In this document: piece after piece, positions 3,423-44,826 of the stretch
How the letters are laid out: every line of letters begins with the position of its first letter
Numbering within the stretch: position 1 is the stretch's first letter
DNA from: Jiella endophytica
Lineage (GTDB): Bacteria; Pseudomonadota; Alphaproteobacteria; Rhizobiales; Rhizobiaceae
Length of the DNA stretch: 64,000 nucleotides
Reading direction: 5' to 3'
Assembly: GCF_004519335.1 (NCBI RefSeq)
Contig: NZ_SOZD01000006.1
Coordinates: forward strand, 62,001 to 126,000
Notes under the pieces: model-generated
The model's database searches: none
Told to the model about the DNA's origin: nothing
The model's input: only the letters and a program-made list of their open reading frames with translations
Position numbers and translations under genes: made by a program

Positions 3423-4703
3423 TCAGCCAGCCGCGATGATTTCGAGACCGCCCATATAGGGCCGCAGCGCCTCCGGCACGGTGATCGAACCGTCGGCGTT
3501 CTGGTAGTTCTCCATCACCGCGATCAGCGCACGGCCGACCGCGACTCCCGAGCCGTTCAGCGTATGGACGAAGCGCTGGGCCTTTTCCCCGGCGACCTTG
3601 TAGCGGGCGTTCATCCGCCGGGCCTGGAAGTCGCCGCAGACCGAGCAGCTGGAGATCTCGCGATAGGTGCCCTGTCCCGGCAGCCAGACCTCGATGTCGT
3701 ATGTCTTGCGGGCGCCAAAGCCCATGTCGCCGGTGCAGAGCGTCACCACCCGGTAGGCAAGGCCGAGGCGCTTCAGCACCTCTTCGGCCGAGGCTGACAT
3801 CCGCTCGAGCTCGTCGAGCGAGGACTCCTCGTCGGTGATCGAGACGAGTTCGACCTTGTAGAACTGGTGCTGGCGCAGCATGCCGCGCTGGTCGCGCCCG
3901 GCAGCCCCCGCCTCGGAGCGGAAGCAGGGCGTCAGCGCGGTGACGCGGATCGGCAGCTCGGCAGCGTCGAGGGTCTTTTCCCGCACCAGATTGGTCAGCG
4001 AGACCTCGGCAGTCGGGATCAGCCAGCGGCCTTCGGAGGTGTGGAAGAGATCCTCGGCGAATTTCGGCAGCTGGCCGGTGCCGAACAGCGCCTCGTCGCG
4101 CACCAGCAGCGGCACCGCCGTCTCGCTGTAGCCGTGCTCGCCGGTGTGAAGGTCCAGCATGAATTGGCCGAGGGCGCGTTCCAGCCGGGCGAGCTGCCCC
4201 TTCAGGATGGTGAAGCGGGCGCCGGAAATCTTCGCCGCCTGCTCGAACTCCATCATGCCGAGCGCCTCGCCGATGTCGAAATGCTCCCTCGCCTCGAAGT
4301 CGAAGCGCGGCGGCTCGCCGATCCTGCGGATCTCGACATTGTCCGCCTCGTCGGCGCCGACCGGCACGTCGTCGAGCGGCACGTTCGGGATGCGCGCGAG
4401 CACGTCTTCGAGGTCTGCGTCGATGCGCCGCTCGGTCTCCTCGCCGTCCTGGATCTCGGCCTTCAGCTTGCCGACTTCCTCGATCAGCGCGTCAGCGCGG
4501 GCATTGTCGCCGGAACCCTTGGCCTTGCCGATTTCCTTGGAAGCCTCGTTGCGGCGATTCTGCAGGTCCTGCAGGATCTTCAGGTGATCGCGCCGCCGCT
4601 CGTCGAGCTTGATGATGTCCGTGGCCGCCGGCGATGCGCCACGCTTTTCCAGCGCCGCGTCCAGCTTGCCCGGATTGTCCCTGATCCACTTGATATCGAG
4701 CAT
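3423..4703 (-). CDS. serS: Seryl-tRNA synthetase
   Basis: This 426-residue class II aminoacyl-tRNA synthetase charges tRNA-Ser. The N-terminal quarter is a helical, charged coiled-coil arm (about residues 25-100, rich in Glu/Lys/Arg) that contacts the tRNA long variable arm. The catalytic core carries motif 2 ([20 protein letters not shown]) and motif 3 ([18 protein letters not shown]) near the C-terminus. It is full length for the family. It sits between tatC (48 bp upstream) and surE (3 bp downstream), as in rhizobia. Confidence 0.97.
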
Positions 4704-34891: not shown

Positions 34892-35499
34892 CGCCGACTA
34901 CTCGCCCCACACCTCTACGCACCTTCGCACCGTTCACACCCACCCCCACGACCGACCGACCGTAGGCACAGAGCCAGACCCCGGCCGAAGCTTGCGACGA
35001 AGCTACGACCGCTCCTTCCGTCATCCGGAAGCACGCCATGCACTGCTTGATTTCGGACCGGAACCGGTCCTGTCGATGTGACAATTGGGATATCATGGGC
35101 GTCCGTGGGCGTCAATGGGAAGAGGCCGGATCGGGCCCTTCGAGGCGCTTTCGGACAGTCTACAAACAATGCCCTTAACGGCTTACTAACATTAAGAAAT
35201 CCCTATCCGATTATGACGAGTTTCCGATTTGGTAATGACTCCCGGTCGCCTCGCCTGTGCCGTCCCGCACAAGGCTCGGACAAGCCTCGTCGGCGCCCCC
35301 GAAAAAATCTTCCCTTCGCTTCCGGCGAGAAAAGTGGTGGGATGGCGCAGACGAGCGAAATGCCCGCGGCCCGAAGGTGAGCCCCAGCCGAAATTCATAA
35401 GTGACTGATAGAAATTCCGTTTCGCCGACGCGCCGAGGATCGGTTCTCGGCTTCCACCCGCTGCGACGCGATGGGCGAGCGGAAACGGAATGATCGAGT
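34892..35499 (-). promoter_or_regulatory. Long mraZ upstream region (leader and promoter) between dcw and rnpB
   Basis: About 600 bp without a gene. The first 190 bp would be the mraZ leader. The MraZ-type operator is at 35086-35120. A more AT-rich tract lies around 35170-35240. The 10-bp inverted repeat ATTCCGTTTC (35415-35424) and GAAACGGAAT (35482-35491) is just beyond the 3' end of rnpB and might take part in its termination or processing. Nothing else is recognised. Confidence 0.4.
35086..35120 (-). promoter_or_regulatory. Four-box MraZ operator overlapping a candidate dcw promoter
   Basis: On the plus strand four pentamers TGGGA, TGGGC, TGGGC and TGGGA begin at 35086, 35096, 35106 and 35116, each separated by exactly 5 bp. 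This is the TGGGN-N5 direct-repeat pattern known for E. coli MraZ (three boxes there). On the minus strand a sigma70-like pair overlaps the array: TTGACG (35115-35110), 17-bp spacer, TATCCC (35092-35087). Binding by MraZ would therefore cover the promoter, consistent with autorepression. Confidence 0.75.
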
Positions 35500-35941
35500 G
35501 TCAGCCGACCTGTAAGCCGGGTTCTGTGAGCGGCAGAGCCGCCCGGCGACCATTCCTCTGGGACGGCCCTTGCGGACCGCCTCTAGCAACCTACCCGGAC
35601 GACCGGCCCGGAGAATGGCTGGCGGTGGGACGAAATCCCACCCCCGCGTCGTCCCTATTCGGTCTTGCTCCCGGTGGGGTTTACCATGCCGGCCCTGTTG
35701 CCAGTTCCGCGGTGGGCTCTTACCCCACCCTTTCACCCTTACCCCGCCAATACTGCGGCTCGGCCATCATCTCACGGGTGGATGGAGCCGCACTATAGGC
35801 GGGGCGGTCTGCTTTCTGTGGCACTTTCCCTGGGGTCGCCCCCGCCGGACGTTATCCGGCACCGTCTCTCCGTGGAGCCCGGACTTTCCTCCCCCGCCGT
35901 CTTTCGACATGTGACGGGAGCGGCCGCCCGGCCGGCTGACG
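35500..35941 (-). ncRNA. rnpB: RNase P RNA, bacterial type A
   Basis: The catalytic RNA of RNase P, which trims tRNA 5' ends. On the minus strand the 5' conserved block reads GAGGAAAGTCCGGGCTCC (about 35890-35873). The 3' conserved block ACAGAACCCGGCTTACA is the complement of 35511-35527, and the middle has GGTAAGGGTGAAAGGGTG and AGAGCCCACCG. The P1 helix is formed by GTCAGCCG at the 5' end (35940-35933) and CGGCTGAC at the 3' end (35507-35500), which sets the ends. Size, about 440 nt, is normal for alphaproteobacteria. Confidence 0.95.
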
Positions 35942-38734: not shown

Positions 38735-39922
38735 ATGACAATTCTGCCGCGCCTTGCCGTCACCGCAGCCCTTCTCGTCGCCGGGGCCGGCACCGCCGCC
38801 GCCCAGCAATGCGGTGGCGATTTCGGCGCCTTCCTGGAGGGCGTCAGGCAGGAGGCGCTGGCCAAGGGCCTGTCCCCGGCGGCCGTCGAGCACGCCGTTG
38901 CCGACATGCGGATCGACAACAAGGTGCTGGCACGCGACCGCGCCCAGGGCGTCTTCGCCCAGGACTGGCGCCAGTTCGCCAGCCGCATGGTCAGCGGCTA
39001 CCGGCTGAAATTCGGCCGGCAGAACATGCAGAAATATGCCAGCACCTTCGACCGCGTCGAAGCCGAGACTGGCGTTCCCGCCCCCGTCATCACCAGCTTC
39101 TGGGGACTCGAGACCGATTTCGGCGCCGTTCTCGGCGACTTCGAGACGCTGCCGGCGCTGGCGACGCTCGCCCATGACTGCCGTCGGCCACAACTGTTCC
39201 GGCCGCATCTGATGGCGGCGATCGAGATCGTCGACAAGGGCTATCTCACGCCGCAGGAAATGCGCGGTGCCTGGGCTGGCGAGATCGGCCAGACCCAGCT
39301 TCTGCCGGAGGAATACATCGCCTTCGGCACGGACGCCGACGGCAACGGCCGGGTCGATCTGCGCAAGGACACGCCGGACGTCCTGATGACCACCGGCAAA
39401 TACATCGCCTCGCTCGGCTGGCGGCGCGGCGAGCCCTGGCTGGAGGCGGTCAAGGTGCCGTCGGACTTTCCGTGGGACCGCGCCGCTCTCGTCAACAAGG
39501 AGCCGCGGTCGAGCTTTGCAGCGCTCGGCGTCACCAAGGCCGACGGGTCGCCGCTCGAAAACGACGGCCTTTCCTCCGCGCTGATCCTGCCGATGGGGCG
39601 GGACGGCCCGGCGTTTCTCGCCTTTCCGAATTTCGAGATCTATCTCGCCTGGAACAAGTCGTTGGTCTATTCGCTCACCGCCGCCTATTTCGCGACGCGG
39701 CTCGCCGGCGCCGAGCCCGTCGACATGGGCAATCCGACGCCGGGCCTGTCGGTCGACCAGACTAAGGTGCTGCAGGAGAAGCTGACCCAGCGCGGCCACG
39801 ATGTCGGCGGCATCGACGGCATCATCGGCGAGAATACCCGGGCGGCGGTCCGCACCGAGCAGCAGCGGCTGGGCCTGCCCGCCGACGGCTGGCCGACCCA
39901 GGACCTTCTCTCGGCGCTGTAG
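38735..39922 (+). CDS. Lytic murein transglycosylase, MltB-like, with peptidoglycan-binding domain
   Basis: A 395-residue secreted enzyme with a signal peptide cleaved after about residue 23 (AGTAAAQQ). The SLT_2/MltB domain (about residues 30-320) has the catalytic Glu in FWGLETDFGAVLGD and the GQTQLLPEEYIAFGTDADGN block; a C-terminal PG_binding_1 domain follows (about 335-393, VLQEKLTQRGHDVGGIDGI). No lipobox is present, so it is probably soluble in the periplasm. It cleaves glycan strands to 1,6-anhydro-muropeptides, the substrates of NagZ and AmpD encoded in this window. Confidence 0.93.
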   Translation: MTILPRLAVTAALLVAGAGTAAAQQCGGDFGAFLEGVRQEALAKGLSPAAVEHAVADMRIDNKVLARDRAQGVFAQDWRQFASRMVSGYRLKFGRQNMQKYASTFDRVEAETGVPAPVITSFWGLETDFGAVLGDFETLPALATLAHDCRRPQLFRPHLMAAIEIVDKGYLTPQEMRGAWAGEIGQTQLLPEEYIAFGTDADGNGRVDLRKDTPDVLMTTGKYIASLGWRRGEPWLEAVKVPSDFPWDRAALVNKEPRSSFAALGVTKADGSPLENDGLSSALILPMGRDGPAFLAFPNFEIYLAWNKSLVYSLTAAYFATRLAGAEPVDMGNPTPGLSVDQTKVLQEKLTQRGHDVGGIDGIIGENTRAAVRTEQQRLGLPADGWPTQDLLSAL

Positions 39923-40376: not shown

Positions 40377-41108
40377 ATGGGCCAGACCACGACCGACGAC
40401 ATGTTTCGATTCGTCGACTGCATCCAGCACCTGGAGGACAAGGACGCGATTGCCGACGAGCTGTTTCGCACCGTCCGCACCTTCGGCTTCACCAGTTACG
40501 GGATTTCGGGCCTGCCCCAGCCGGGGGAATCGATCGAACCCTACTTCCTTCTGTCCGGCTGGCATCCCGAATGGTTCGATCGCTATGTCGGCAACGACTA
40601 CGTCCACCACGACCCCGTCATCGCCAACACGCTGAGGACGGACGACCCGTTTACCTGGAAGGAGGCCTGCGAAGGCCGCAAGCTGGGGCCGAAGGCGCGC
40701 GCCGTCATGGACGAGGCGACCGAGTTCGGCATGCATGACGGCCTCACCGTGCCGATCTACTCGCTGAACGGACTATCGGCGGTCGTCACCTTCGGCGGCG
40801 AGCGGATCGACCTTTCGGCTCGCGATCGCGGCGCCCTGCACCTGATCGCCATCTATGCCCACAGCCAGATCCGGCGTCTGATCAGCCAGCGCAGCGAGAA
40901 GCTCGAGGATTCCGCACCGTTTTCGCACCGCGAGCGGGAATGCGTGCTCTGGTGCGCCGCCGGCAAGACCAATTGGGAGATCGGCCGCATCACCGGCCTC
41001 GCCGAGAAAACCGTCGAAACCTACCTGCGCAACGCCAGCGCCAAGGTCGGCGCGATCAATCGCGCCCAGCTCGTCGCCGAAAGCTTCCGCCAGCGCCGCA
41101 TCAACTGA
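40377..41108 (+). CDS. LuxR-family acyl-homoserine-lactone-responsive regulator
   Basis: A 243-residue quorum-sensing regulator. The N-terminal autoinducer-binding domain (about residues 15-165) has the conserved Trp, Tyr, Asp and Pro in PEWFDRYVGNDYVHHDPV and a Trp in DDPFTWKEA, plus GMHDGLTVPIY. The C-terminal LuxR HTH (about 178-240) reads SHRERECVLWCAAGKTNWEI and ITGLAEKTVETYLRN. The full set of ligand-contact residues suggests a true AHL receptor. It is 349 bp upstream of luxI in the same direction. Confidence 0.93.
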   Translation: MGQTTTDDMFRFVDCIQHLEDKDAIADELFRTVRTFGFTSYGISGLPQPGESIEPYFLLSGWHPEWFDRYVGNDYVHHDPVIANTLRTDDPFTWKEACEGRKLGPKARAVMDEATEFGMHDGLTVPIYSLNGLSAVVTFGGERIDLSARDRGALHLIAIYAHSQIRRLISQRSEKLEDSAPFSHRERECVLWCAAGKTNWEIGRITGLAEKTVETYLRNASAKVGAINRAQLVAESFRQRRIN

Positions 41109-41457
41109 CCGGCGATCACCTCAAGTCTTCATCGCATCGCCCTCAGACTGCCACCAGTCGTCGCAAGACGATCTGCACGCCGAACTTTCGTTGCAACTCC
41201 CACTACCTCACATTGTATTTGGCGAATACGGCAGATGCCAGGACAAGATGCATGACTGTTTGTCCAAAAATGAATTTCTGTCCCGGATAATAAATCCCTG
41301 AGCGGCAAAGAAGATATATTTTCCAGCGGATTGACGCCACAATACAATTTTGCTGCACTTATCCATCTGCAGCAGCGTGGTCAATACGGGGAAATCCCCG
41401 GATTTGGGAACTGCCTTCCGTAGCGCAAAAAGCGCCTTAAACGAGAGGGTCCCGACC
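41109..41457 (+). promoter_or_regulatory. Low-GC luxI promoter region with candidate lux-box palindromes
   Basis: About 350 bp without a gene, visibly more AT-rich than the flanks. Three inverted repeats stand out: GGACAA-N13-TTGTCC (41241-41265), TGCTGCA-N10-TGCAGCA (41351-41374) and CGGGGA-AA-TCCCCG (41387-41400). The last two are 84-107 and 58-71 bp before the luxI ATG at 41458 and are candidate LuxR-binding sites. None matches a known lux-box consensus exactly. A GAGAGGG ribosome-binding site precedes the ATG. Confidence 0.45.
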
Positions 41458-42195
41458 ATGATGCAGATGATTACCGAGGCGAACATGGCTCTTCACGAGA
41501 AAACCATGGAAGACGTCTGGGCGTTCCGGCATCGACACTTCGTCGACCGGTTCGAATGGCATGCGCTTCGCAAGCCCGACCAGCGCGAGATCGACCAGTT
41601 CGACGACGACAACGCCATTCATCTGCCGCTCGTCCTCGACGGGCGCGTCGTCGGCTATACGAGGCTTCTGCGAACCGACGGGCCGCATCTCCTGTCCGAC
41701 GTCTACCCCGAGCTGATGGACGGTGCGCCCTGGCCGCGCGGCGAGGACATCGTCGAATGGACGCGCTGCGTCGCCGAACCCGGGGTGACGGACGCCGCCG
41801 GCGTCAGCGTCAACAATCTGGTGTTTGCCGGGGTCGCCGAGGCCTTCGTCGCTCTCGGCCTGCGGGGGATCATCGTCCAGACGCATCCCAAGCTGGTGAC
41901 GCGGCTGCTCGAGACAGGCTGGCAGGTGCGGCCGCTGAACGTCCCGCGCCTCTACGACGGCAAGCCGCTGGCGGTGATCTTCGCCGTCGCGACGGAAGAG
42001 ACGGTGCGCACCAGCCACGCGCTCTTCCACATGGACTCACCCGTCCTGTCGATCGATCGGGACCTGCCGCACCCGCTGCACCGCGACGATCCGCTCCGTC
42101 CGAGCTTCGAAGAGGTTGCGACAAATCGGCGCAGTGTTGGGACGAAAGTCGCGACTTCGCACGGTGAAAAACGAATTAACTCAGGGAGGAAATGA
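41458..42195 (+). CDS. LuxI-family acyl-homoserine-lactone synthase
   Basis: A 245-residue autoinducer synthase that makes N-acyl-homoserine lactones from S-adenosylmethionine and an acyl-ACP or acyl-CoA. LuxI hallmarks are present: VWAFRHRHFVDRFEW (Arg, Phe, Trp), the Asp residues in QFDDDNAIHL, the Arg in VVGYTRLLRTDG, and EWTRCVAEP replacing the usual ESSRF block. The start is the ATG at 41458 (a second one follows directly) after GAGAGGG. The C-terminus is about 30-40 residues longer than usual and basic. The acyl chain cannot be predicted. Confidence 0.92.
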   Translation: MMQMITEANMALHEKTMEDVWAFRHRHFVDRFEWHALRKPDQREIDQFDDDNAIHLPLVLDGRVVGYTRLLRTDGPHLLSDVYPELMDGAPWPRGEDIVEWTRCVAEPGVTDAAGVSVNNLVFAGVAEAFVALGLRGIIVQTHPKLVTRLLETGWQVRPLNVPRLYDGKPLAVIFAVATEETVRTSHALFHMDSPVLSIDRDLPHPLHRDDPLRPSFEEVATNRRSVGTKVATSHGEKRINSGRK

Positions 42196-42197
42196 GG

Positions 42198-42509
42198 ATG
42201 ATTTCGGAGGACACGATGGGGTTGTCGAGCGCAAGAGAAGCCGCCCACTTCCTCATCTCCAGCTTGTCGGCGGTAAGGGGTCTGTCCAAGGAGGCGGCCC
42301 GCGCGATTGAATTTGCCATCTATCAGTGTGACGATCGGTTGATGATACCGGAGCGCGCGCTGCCGGCCCCTGTCATTAACCGAAATGCGCTACTACATGC
42401 TTTGAATTATGCAATTCCTGAGCTAGAGCAGGGCCGTCCAGAAGCTGCCGCTGCGGTTAGTCTGGCAGTAAGTATTCTGGTTGAACAACCGGAGCGGCAA
42501 AACCAGTAA
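42198..42509 (+). CDS. Small protein coupled to luxI, unknown (possible CinS-like partner)
   Basis: A 103-residue protein starting 2 bp after the luxI stop, with GGAGG 8 nt before the ATG at 42198; another ATG at 42192 overlaps the luxI stop. It looks all-helical and soluble, with Ala/Leu-rich segments (SAREAAHFLISSLSAVRGLS, ELEQGRPEAAAAVSLAVSIL) and no membrane helix. I do not recognise a family. Its place between luxI and an XRE regulator recalls rhizobial cinI-cinS, where the small CinS protein relieves repression by the XRE-type PraR; this is an analogy from position, not from sequence. The DNA is more AT-rich than its neighbours. Confidence 0.75.
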   Translation: MISEDTMGLSSAREAAHFLISSLSAVRGLSKEAARAIEFAIYQCDDRLMIPERALPAPVINRNALLHALNYAIPELEQGRPEAAAAVSLAVSILVEQPERQNQ

Positions 42510-42521
42510 GATAGTCGAACT

Positions 42522-42890
42522 ATGCGTAATTCAAAAGCTGCATCCGATATCGATCGTCAGATCGCCGCCCGAATCAGGCTTGCACGCCTCGAAACGGGTA
42601 TCTCGCAGGAAAAACTGGCCGAGGCTCTCGGAATCACGTTCCAGCAGGTCCAGAAATACGAAAAGGGCCTGAACAGAATCTCGGCCGGCCGGCTGCGTGA
42701 GATCGCCGATACCCTCGGCCGCGAAGTAACGTGGTTCTTCGAGGAGATGCCGACCTTCGAGGCCTATCCGACCCTGTCGAAGGCCGATCTGCGGATGCTG
42801 AAGAACCTCAAGGCGCTCTCGCCCGAGACCCGCCGGGCGCTCGACGCCCTGCTCGTGTCGCTCAACCCGGACGTCGAAACCGCCGAGTGA
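42522..42890 (+). CDS. XRE-family helix-turn-helix regulator (PraR-like)
   Basis: A 122-residue repressor with an N-terminal HTH_3 domain (about residues 12-66: RIRLARLETGISQEKLAEAL, then GITFQQVQKYEKGLNRISAG) of the same type as rhizobial PraR/PhrR-like regulators. The C-terminal half has no known effector domain. It lies 12 bp after the small gene and so in the luxI transcript. A likely role is control of the quorum-sensing genes, inferred from position. A large hairpin follows directly. Confidence 0.85.
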   Translation: MRNSKAASDIDRQIAARIRLARLETGISQEKLAEALGITFQQVQKYEKGLNRISAGRLREIADTLGREVTWFFEEMPTFEAYPTLSKADLRMLKNLKALSPETRRALDALLVSLNPDVETAE

Positions 42891-43023: not shown

Positions 43024-44826
43024 TCAGACGAATTTCGCCACCGCCGCATCGGTGATCCGGAAGCTCACCTCCTGCTCGCCGCGGAAATGATCGGCGGAGA
43101 CGCTTCCAGCCACATGCAGCGGGCTCGGCGTGCGTGACTGCAAGAGGTCGCCCAGATCGCTCCCCGCCGCCTTGAAGGCGATGGCCCGCATCGTCGCCCC
43201 ATCCTCCCCCTTCAGCCTGACCGCGATGTGACCGTTGCCGACCACACGCGCATCGGCGACGACGTGCCGGGCGACCGCCAGCATCGGCGTCTCGTGGCCG
43301 GAGCCGTAAGGCCCCGCCTTTTCCAGAAGCTCGTAGAGCGGCAGCGTCAGCCCGGCGGCGCTGATCGCCCCGTCGATCTTCAGGGCATCCGCGGCGCGCG
43401 CCCGCGCGAAGTCCTCCCGCGTGGCGGCCTCCAGAAAGGCCCGCAGCTCGCCGAGCTTCTCCCGCCGGACGGTCAGCCCCGCCGCCATCGCATGGCCGCC
43501 GCCCTTTTCGATCACCCGGCGCTCGACGGCCTCGCGGACGATGCGTCCAAGGTCGATGCCTGCCACCGAGCGCCCCGAGCCCGAACCTTTGCCGCTTCCG
43601 TCGAAGGCGATGGCGAAGGCCGGCCGGCGATAGCGCTCCTTCAGCCGCGCGGCGATCAGCCCGACGATGCCCGGATGCCAGTCATCGGACGCGGCGATGA
43701 GCACCGGTGGCCCCTCGCTTGCGCCGATCTCCGCGCCGACCTCGGCATCGGCCTCGGCCAGCATGCGCGCCTCCATCGCCTGGCGCTCGGCATTCAGCGT
43801 GTCGAGCTGGGCGGCGATCGCCTCGGCGGCGGTGCCGTCGTCGAGGCAGAGCAGCCGGCTGCCGAGCGCGGCATCGCCGATCCGGCCGCCGGCATTGATC
43901 CGCGGGCCGAGCAGAAAGCCGAGATGGCCCGAGCGCACCGGCCCCGAAAGCCGCGCCACCCGGCAGAGCGCCTTCAGCCCGGCATTGTCCTGGCGCCGCA
44001 TCACCGTCAGCCCCTGGACGACGAATGCGCGGTTCAGCCCTTTCAGCGGGACGACGTCGCACACCGTCGCCAGCGCCACGAGATCGAGCAGCGCGATGAG
44101 GTCGAGCGGCAGGCGGGCGATGGCGCCGCGCTGGCGCAGCAGCCGCTGGGTCGCCACCAGCGTCATGAAGACGACGCCGGCCGCGGCGAGATGGCCGAGG
44201 CCGGATAGGTCGTCCTGGCGGTTCGGATTGACCAGTGCCACGACTTCGGGGAGCTCGGTGCCGGTCTGGTGGTGGTCGAGGACGACGACGTCGAGGCCGA
44301 GCGTCCTGGCATGGTCGGCGGTCTCGAAGCTGCCGGTGCCGCAGTCGACGGTGACGAGCAGCCGCGCGCCGGCGACGGCCAGCTCGTCGATCGCCTGGAT
44401 GTTCGGGCCGTAGCCCTCGGTGATGCGGTCGGGAATGTGGACGATCGGATCGAGGCCGTAATGGGCGAGGAACCGCCACAGCAGCGCCGAGGAGGCCGCT
44501 CCGTCGACATCGTAATCGCCGAAGATCGCCACCTTCTCGCCGCGCGTAACCGCGTCTGCCAGCCGCTCGGCGGCTGCGTCCATATCCGTCATGACGGAAG
44601 GATCGGGCATTTCGCTGCGCAGCTTCGGATCGAGGAAGCGGCCGGCGAGCTCGGTCTCGACGCCGCGCGCCGCGAGTACCCTGGCGACGATGTCCGGCAG
44701 GCCGAGCTTCTGCGCCATGGCGAGCGCCTGCGCTTCGCTGCGAAGGTCGAGGGCGCTGATCCAGCGCCGCCCGGTGACGGAGCTGTCGACGCCGAGGAAG
44801 CTGCTGCTGGCGGCTGGTGTCTTCAT
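43024..44826 (-). CDS. recJ: Single-stranded-DNA-specific exonuclease RecJ
   Basis: A 600-residue 5'-3' ssDNA exonuclease of the DHH family acting in RecFOR recombination and mismatch repair. DHH-family metal motifs: IFGDYDVDGAASSALL, VTVDCGTG, VVLDHHQTG, and the DHHA1 domain motif GGGHAMAAGLTV; GPRINAGGRIGDA is also typical. The C-terminal OB-fold region ends the protein. It is downstream of glpX, 148 bp away, and converges with the quorum-sensing operon. recO of the same pathway is at 59990. Confidence 0.95.
   Translation of the reverse strand: MKTPAASSSFLGVDSSVTGRRWISALDLRSEAQALAMAQKLGLPDIVARVLAARGVETELAGRFLDPKLRSEMPDPSVMTDMDAAAERLADAVTRGEKVAIFGDYDVDGAASSALLWRFLAHYGLDPIVHIPDRITEGYGPNIQAIDELAVAGARLLVTVDCGTGSFETADHARTLGLDVVVLDHHQTGTELPEVVALVNPNRQDDLSGLGHLAAAGVVFMTLVATQRLLRQRGAIARLPLDLIALLDLVALATVCDVVPLKGLNRAFVVQGLTVMRRQDNAGLKALCRVARLSGPVRSGHLGFLLGPRINAGGRIGDAALGSRLLCLDDGTAAEAIAAQLDTLNAERQAMEARMLAEADAEVGAEIGASEGPPVLIAASDDWHPGIVGLIAARLKERYRRPAFAIAFDGSGKGSGSGRSVAGIDLGRIVREAVERRVIEKGGGHAMAAGLTVRREKLGELRAFLEAATREDFARARAADALKIDGAISAAGLTLPLYELLEKAGPYGSGHETPMLAVARHVVADARVVGNGHIAVRLKGEDGATMRAIAFKAAGSDLGDLLQSRTPSPLHVAGSVSADHFRGEQEVSFRITDAAVAKFV

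Follow-up and report, generated by a model that had tools for sequence, protein, structure and literature searches.

Small open reading frames (ORFs) that follow genes for acyl-homoserine lactone (AHL) synthases raise the question of what their products act on. One such ORF lies in a 64,000-nt stretch of Jiella endophytica DNA (G000:C25:62001-126000), here called the window, to which the coordinates below refer. Between an mltB-like gene and a convergent recJ-like gene, the window contains luxR, luxI, an ORF for a 103-aa protein (P0001) and a gene for a 122-aa XRE-type helix-turn-helix (HTH) regulator (xre; product P0002), with gaps of 2 nt between luxI and the small ORF and 12 nt between the small ORF and xre. 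ORF calls and Pfam matches bear out the four genes, their coordinates and both gaps as given in a preliminary description of this DNA. Comparison with related genomes shows that the small ORF codes for a protein under selection, even where luxR and luxI (luxRI) have gone from the locus, and points to P0002, a paralogue of the regulator PraR, rather than LuxR as the likely partner of P0001. An even chance is given to the reading that AHL induces luxI, the small ORF and xre together and that P0001 relieves repression by P0002.

Nested Loss of the Locus in Jiella

Ten genomes of the genus were compared: that of the window (G000), G020, G122, G192, G248, G296, G297, G298, G299, and G300. The order luxR-luxI-small ORF-XRE occurs in the mltB-recJ gap of six of them (G000, G248, G300, G296, G122, and G020), with LuxI protein identities of 67 to 77% across the five others, so that the gene order proposed earlier for luxI, the small ORF and the XRE gene is indeed conserved in relatives. 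G297, G298, and G299 contain the small ORF, again 12 nt ahead of the XRE gene, and no luxRI in this gap. G192 keeps the XRE gene next to a small ORF interrupted by an in-frame stop and likewise has no luxRI there. Presence in the genus is nested, with the XRE gene in 10/10 genomes, an intact small ORF in 9/10 and luxRI at the locus in 6/10. The small ORF is never found without the XRE gene (0/10), and the two are adjacent in all nine genomes with an intact ORF, including those without luxRI.

A tree built from four flanking proteins places G192 at the base, followed by G122, and unites G297, G298, and G299 in one clade with a support of 100. The same support is reached for G248 plus G300 and for the split between G192 and the rest, and the other nodes range from 30 to 81. 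Each of the gaps of G297, G298, and G299 has matches to luxR leader sequence and to 3' luxI sequence from relatives, with best E values per gene of 2e-9 to 3e-4 and identities of 75 to 86% over 29 to 83 bases. Because these genomes form one clade and carry such matches in the gap, sequence comparison indicates that luxRI was lost, not gained, in their lineage. The same comparison finds no luxRI remnants in the gap of G192, where loss is likely. LuxI matches at an E value of ≤0.001 are absent from G297, and other luxR/luxI relatives are present in the genomes of G298 and G299. Outside Jiella, G027 has an orthologue of xre (80 to 82% identity) at the same mltB-recJ place, without luxRI. The module had been suggested to be possibly acquired; a recent acquisition does not survive this comparison, given that the XRE gene occupies the same gap in all ten Jiella genomes as well as in one genome from a different genus, and that the clade without luxRI lost them.

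Selection on P0001 and Its Predicted Structure

The gene for P0001 has a median ratio of nonsynonymous to synonymous substitution rates (dN/dS) of 0.19 (range, 0.09 to 0.27; 36/36 pairs), and luxI has a median of 0.20 (15/15 pairs; first 200 codons). Among G297, G298, and G299, which have no luxRI at the locus, the values are 0.09, 0.15, and 0.22. The small ORF thus encodes a protein on which selection continues to act in genomes whose locus no longer has the AHL genes. Since it is selected without luxRI, LuxR or LuxI is unlikely to be the sole partner of P0001, and the ever-present neighbor is favored; by this comparison, the XRE protein rather than LuxR is the likely partner. Against taking this as proof stands the retention of other luxR/luxI relatives in G298 and G299.

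P0001 matches no entry of Pfam, NCBIfam, PADLOC, or PHROGs at an E value of ≤1. Profile scans, limited to at most 16 or 12 candidates in each genome, give matches at an E value of ≤0.1 per genome in at least 11 of 291 other family genomes (best, 0.0027) and in at least 24 of 395 genomes of an order sample overlapping with them (best, 0.0039), none of them convincing. Relatives at an E value of ≤0.1 are absent from the PLSDB plasmids, and a weak match in G140 is not near a luxI within the 11 kb around it. Against the P0001 family, the similar-looking small ORFs in G042, G102, and G174 do not outscore shuffled decoys.

The AlphaFold2 model of P0001 shows helices at residues 11 to 27, 31 to 47, 62 to 77, and 81 to 95, with a mean predicted local distance difference test score (pLDDT) of 59.6. 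At this low confidence, the model comprises two helical hairpins, each with a 3-residue turn, about 50 residues apart. The best self-match of the protein covers 11 columns at an offset of 50 and is equaled by 20 of 1,000 plain and 32 of 1,000 pattern-keeping shuffles; comparison of the two halves by hhalign gives a P value of 0.007, yet a probability of 5.5%. An internal duplication of P0001 is suggestive only.

P0002 as a Paralogue of PraR

In R. leguminosarum, CinS, which is made with CinI, inactivates PraR, according to the available text of PMC4149787. The corresponding ORF after mmaI of Methylobacterium fujisawaense encodes the 59-aa protein MmaP, which is QS (quorum sensing) induced and binds PraR, as given in the available part of PMC10790750. 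P0002 is conserved with 89 to 98% identity in the nine other genomes of the genus, and its gene shows a median dN/dS of 0.026 (44/45 pairs; one pair failed the dS cutoff). The closest other protein in the genome, with 56% identity over residues 4 to 82, is likely PraR; the two agree at 27 of 31 positions over residues 28 to 58 of P0002. Behind the gene of this likely PraR, at another place in the genome, come a metK-like ORF and, at a greater distance, a trmB-like ORF (both named from translations). The neighborhood described for praR has S-adenosylmethionine synthetase and tRNA-methyltransferase genes downstream (PMC10790750, available part), and no such genes are found downstream of xre, which lies in the mltB-recJ gap. 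Because the metK/trmB-type neighborhood belongs to the other gene, P0002 is filed as a paralogue of PraR, not as its orthologue, and the true praR, judged by sequence and neighborhood, is likely the gene elsewhere. Matches to P0002 with 45 to 52% identity at an E value of ≤1e-23 occur in five more of 297 family genomes, with no luxI in the 9 to 10.5 kb around them.

The Lux-Box-Like Palindrome

The luxI-proximal part of the luxR-luxI gap can be aligned in 6/6 genomes around the palindrome AATACGGGGAAATCCCCGGATT, a putative lux box bound by LuxR. The 15-base pattern ATACNGGGARAYYCC has one match per genome in the six genomes with luxRI, always before luxI, and no match in the four genus genomes without luxRI at the locus; the reversed pattern, used as a control, has one match over the ten genomes. 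As the pattern was drawn from these six sites, finding them is circular, and what is informative is that there is no second site and none in the other four genomes in a scan that would miss weaker sites. With a single site per genome, and that only at luxI, this locus stands out as the visible LuxR target. Should it be the one strong target of LuxR, the output of LuxR must run through the products of the locus. The conserved palindrome and the gene spacing make an AHL-controlled luxI-small ORF-xre unit likely on sequence grounds. The motif TTGCAA reported for PraR has one site in the luxR-luxI gap (41191), without an aligned counterpart in the other five sequences.

Synonymous Constraint within the Small ORF

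Synonymous difference, counted among codon pairs for the same residue, is 0.41 over the whole small ORF and drops to 0.080 in codons 68 to 78, 0.092 in codons 69 to 77, 0.126 in codons 69 to 87, and 0.180 in codons 61 to 87. Windows of the same lengths elsewhere in the small ORF, luxI, and luxR have a mean of ∼0.40 and minima of 0.146, 0.114, 0.198, and 0.250; windows as low as the constrained stretch number 0/493, 0/503, 0/456, and 0/424, and the lowest 9-codon window of the XRE gene has a value of 0.30. The constraint is strong, these counts being no formal test, since the windows overlap and the stretch was picked after the alignment had been seen. The 30-base core is identical in G192 despite the in-frame stop upstream; the C-terminal frame is still open there by eye, and identity of the core may be partly coding. 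With at most one mismatch, GAWTTATGCAATTC is found at this place in 10/10 genomes, with only one match elsewhere, in G122. A conserved RNA structure over the stretch is not supported (covariation term, +0.22; 1/30 pairs changed on both sides).

Since PraR represses its own gene, with TTGCAA as the reported motif (PMC4149787, available text), the stretch is read as a probable promoter or operator of xre; it contains ATGCAA, one base off this motif, which lends weak support. Such an arrangement suggests that coding and regulation share bases in the small gene. The luxI-small ORF-xre grouping of the preliminary description is likely an AHL-controlled unit, given the palindrome and the spacing, and the putative single transcript is probably only part of the story in view of xre's own probable cis-element.

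The low G+C content noted earlier for the small ORF and the luxI promoter is confirmed, with 55.4% for the ORF and 50.7% for the luxR-luxI gap, compared to 67.0% for the window. In this genome, the G+C content at third codon positions (GC3) of the P0001 gene is 0.37 in codons 61 to 103 versus 0.75 in codons 1 to 60, and the second part of the ORF is lower in G+C in 6/7 other genomes measured and equal in G248. The GC3 drop in this second part, with its constrained stretch, offers a local explanation for part of the AT-richness. It does not account for the AT-rich luxI promoter or for the start of the small ORF up to codon 60, which likewise lies under the window mean (54 to 64% G+C).

luxI Neighbors in the Wider Family

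LuxI relatives occur in 104/297 genomes of the family, Jiella included. Besides the six main Jiella loci, 131 luxI places were examined, 127 in other family genomes and four belonging to secondary Jiella systems; luxI was found by tblastn in 130 of these, and at least 700 nt after the stop codon is available for 127 of the 130. At three loci (G115, G042, and G128), luxI is followed within ∼700 bp by a PraR-like gene in the same orientation, each time with a small ORF between luxI and the PraR paralogue. Against these stands a chance expectation of ∼0.04 of 130 loci (P, ∼1e-5), a rough figure based on 4.7 PraR-like genes per genome, the mean of six genomes chosen for other reasons. All three genomes have a closer PraR match (69 to 75%) elsewhere, and matches at an E value of ≤1e-10 are limited in G042 and G115 to that gene and the luxI-linked one. 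One orthologous group of luxI-linked PraR paralogues is not supported, as the tree (node supports, 19 to 100; long branches) has no single clade including the Jiella XRE protein. The small ORF and the PraR paralogue of G115 have between them an inverted repeat with a T-run that resembles a terminator, as judged by eye (L158, ∼4470 to 4510). In G047 and G140 (L161 and L162), a PraR-like gene lies on the opposite strand ∼200 bp downstream and faces luxI; beyond these five genomes, the fetched sequence contains no further PraR-like genes near luxI at an E value of <1e-3.

A profile of small ORFs after luxI, called CinS-like by position and size only, matches 12 loci at an E value of <0.001, ten of which are its own seeds, picked by eye, and two of which are new (L223 and L225). 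One seed belongs to the genome under study, where a second luxR-luxI pair outside the window (G000:C24:473847-474368; L034) is followed after 12 nt by a small ORF for a 69-aa protein. Its AlphaFold2 model is a helix hairpin (residues 12 to 29 and 33 to 59; mean pLDDT, 79.8). P0001 and this protein are thus both modeled with a helix, a 3-residue turn, and a helix, a predicted likeness rather than homology, as two-helix hairpins are common. Another recurring ORF, of ∼80 to 95 aa where it looks intact, follows luxI at loci such as L228, L239, L245, L267, and L268; its motif WAWEFLRRNP is seen in about ten of the loci listed.

Proposed Mechanism and Alternatives

In the proposed mechanism, luxI, the small ORF, and xre would be placed under LuxR through the putative lux box, presumably as a cotranscribed, AHL-inducible unit. 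At quorum, LuxR-AHL would raise the levels of LuxI and of the small helical P0001, which would bind the operon's own PraR-paralogue repressor P0002 and lift repression of its presumed target genes. P0002 would also be made from the candidate cis-element inside the small ORF, probably under autoregulation. The repressor would then be present below quorum, and the QS promoter would mainly shift the P0001:P0002 ratio. The presumed direction of the effect, anti-repression, is taken from CinS and MmaP only. Because relatives without the signal genes kept the small protein and the regulator, the pair probably carries the signal output, and the losses in relatives reveal which half of the locus is dispensable. 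The question of what a small protein behind luxI acts on thereby becomes testable in environmental bacteria, with no more than two small proteins and a short piece of DNA.

Several observations weigh against P0001 as an anti-repressor of P0002 in such a unit. The likeness to cinI-cinS and PraR drawn in the preliminary description stands insofar as the XRE protein is a PraR paralogue and the small ORF is tied to it more than to luxRI. In sequence, it does not extend to the small luxI neighbors of relatives, for which a profile search had been suggested: hhalign and hmmsearch give no significant match of P0001 to any other small ORF linked to luxI in the family. P0001 has no match in the PDB either (best Foldseek E value, 1.5 for the fold; best profile E value, 0.97), the pLDDT of its model is only 59.6, and it is ∼1.75 times as long as MmaP (103 versus 59 aa). 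In G192, the XRE gene persists next to the interrupted small ORF, so that P0002 can work alone. The stretch read as the operator has the PraR motif with one base changed, and ATGCAA is missing from G027. The small ORF and the PraR paralogue of G115 are probably separate transcripts, and the parallel between the luxI-linked PraR genes and the Jiella XRE gene may be convergent.

A wider version of the anti-repressor reading is doubtful. It describes a detachable QS output module, made of a protein with two CinS-type hairpins and a dedicated PraR paralogue, with the promoter or operator of the repressor inside the frame of the anti-repressor. The pair would work under another input after AHL loss, and luxI-linked PraR paralogues would have been recruited several times in the family.

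It is unlikely that P0001 acts on the canonical PraR, with P0002 as a separate paralogue that regulates its own gene and has no more than the locus in common with P0001. The genome has a likely praR beside a metK-like gene, CinS and MmaP are known to target PraR in the published accounts available, and the XRE gene persists in G192 without an intact small ORF. This explanation has to contend with the adjacency of the small ORF and the XRE gene in 9/9 genomes in which the ORF is intact, even without luxRI, and with the small hairpin ORF of the second luxI, which could already serve PraR.

All ties between P0001 and P0002 fit either sign of regulation, and P0001 could be a co-repressor or stabilizer of P0002 instead of its anti-repressor. 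The Methylobacterium PraR acts as a positive regulator of swarming (PMC10790750, available part), which would suit this reading. The published CinS antagonizes PraR and MmaP is proposed to inhibit it, as far as the available texts go, and the co-repressor role is considered improbable.

TraM is an anti-activator of TraR and similar in size to P0001. A corresponding action of P0001 on LuxR would suit its length of ∼100 aa, its predicted all-helical fold, and the position of its gene next to luxR and luxI; it is a poor fit to a protein without a Pfam family at an E value of ≤1, as Pfam presumably includes a TraM model. Purifying selection on P0001 in three genomes without luxR and luxI at the locus also speaks against this role without being proof, since two of them have other LuxR relatives, and the role is quite improbable. 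Most improbable is a toxin-antitoxin pair of a helical toxin and an XRE antitoxin placed behind luxI: a small gene followed closely by an XRE gene is a common antitoxin layout and P0002 has antitoxin profile matches, which fall below the curated cutoff, but P0001 matches no Pfam, NCBIfam, PADLOC, or PHROGs family, P0002 is a PraR paralogue, and its gene sits at one chromosomal place in 10/10 genomes, unlike most mobile toxin-antitoxin loci.

Features of the Locus

The features of the locus are listed in Table 1. An in-frame ATG at 42192, upstream of the P0001 start, would give an alternative protein of 105 aa and a 4-nt overlap with luxI. TAAGATAGT is presumably the Shine-Dalgarno site of xre, by its consensus. 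In G248 (L024, 4423 to 4719) and G300 (L025, 5981 to 6277), the small ORF stops at a TAG after codon 98, and the bases between this codon and xre still resemble those of the relatives. Elsewhere in the window, the sole Rfam match at the gathering threshold is a class A RNase P RNA (35497 to 35939, minus strand), and the sole tRNA found by ARAGORN is a tRNA-Arg (ccg) (1628 to 1716).

Table 1. Genes and proposed regulatory elements between the mltB-like and recJ-like genes, in window coordinates
Feature	Position	Strand	Remarks
mltB-like gene	38735-39922		Named from translation
luxR, AHL-responsive regulator, 243 aa	40377-41108	+	Pfam Autoind_bind 1.6e-32, GerE 1.8e-15
Lux-box-like palindrome AATACGGGGAAATCCCCGGATT	41383-41404		9/11 pairs; aligned in 6/6 luxI promoters
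luxI, AHL synthase, 245 aa	41458-42195	+	Pfam Autoind_synth 1e-19
Small ORF (P0001), 103 aa, proposed partner of the XRE protein	42198-42509	+	Intact in 9/10 genus genomes
Synonymously constrained stretch, codons 68-88, proposed xre cis-element	42399-42461		30-nt core 42399-42428
TAAGATAGT, Shine-Dalgarno-like site of xre	42507-42515	+	Overlaps small-ORF stop codon; nearly invariant in genus alignment
xre (P0002), PraR-paralogue HTH regulator, 122 aa	42522-42890	+	Pfam HTH_3 1.1e-14
recJ-like gene	43024-44826	minus	Convergent; named from translation

Comparison with Known Systems

The available texts of PMC4149787, PMC5977203, PMC10790750, PMC3356288, PMC10432266, and PMC13133039 describe no luxI-small ORF-xre arrangement. 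The Aeromonas phage modules of XRE, LuxR, and small ORF (PMC10432266, available text) share with the Jiella locus a LuxR-type regulator, an XRE protein, and a small protein, which in the phages inactivates a repressor, as is proposed for P0001. They are phage-borne and contain no luxI; the XRE protein helps activate the small ORF there, and the target is the phage cI. The cepI-BCAM1871 pair of Burkholderia cenocepacia resembles the locus in a genus-restricted gene located with the synthase gene, cotranscribed with it in that species, and affecting QS output, as P0001 presumably would. The available text of PMC3356288 describes an effect on cepI and cepR expression and no XRE partner.

The closest parallels are the two PraR systems, compared here by description from the available texts. 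The CinI-CinS/PraR system (PMC4149787 and PMC5977203) shares a small protein made with an AHL synthase and a PraR-type HTH protein as the proposed target; in contrast to it, Jiella has a PraR paralogue in the locus and a likely canonical PraR elsewhere, with binding putative in Jiella. The MmaI-MmaP/PraR system (PMC10790750) shares a small ORF directly after the synthase gene and in the same orientation, the product of which is QS induced and binds PraR in Methylobacterium, as is proposed for P0001 and the PraR paralogue. The Jiella protein is larger (103 versus 59 aa), the praR of the MmaP system lies elsewhere, by metK, and an in-locus paralogue is not described in the available account. What sets the Jiella locus apart from both systems is the paralogue beside the small ORF, the larger size of P0001, and the stretch under constraint in the P0001 gene. 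In the known cases, the synthase-linked small protein acts on a PraR encoded elsewhere, and in Jiella, the proposed target is encoded in the same locus. The comparison suggests a CinS/PraR logic that is spread more widely, and built in a more modular way, than in its two published examples.

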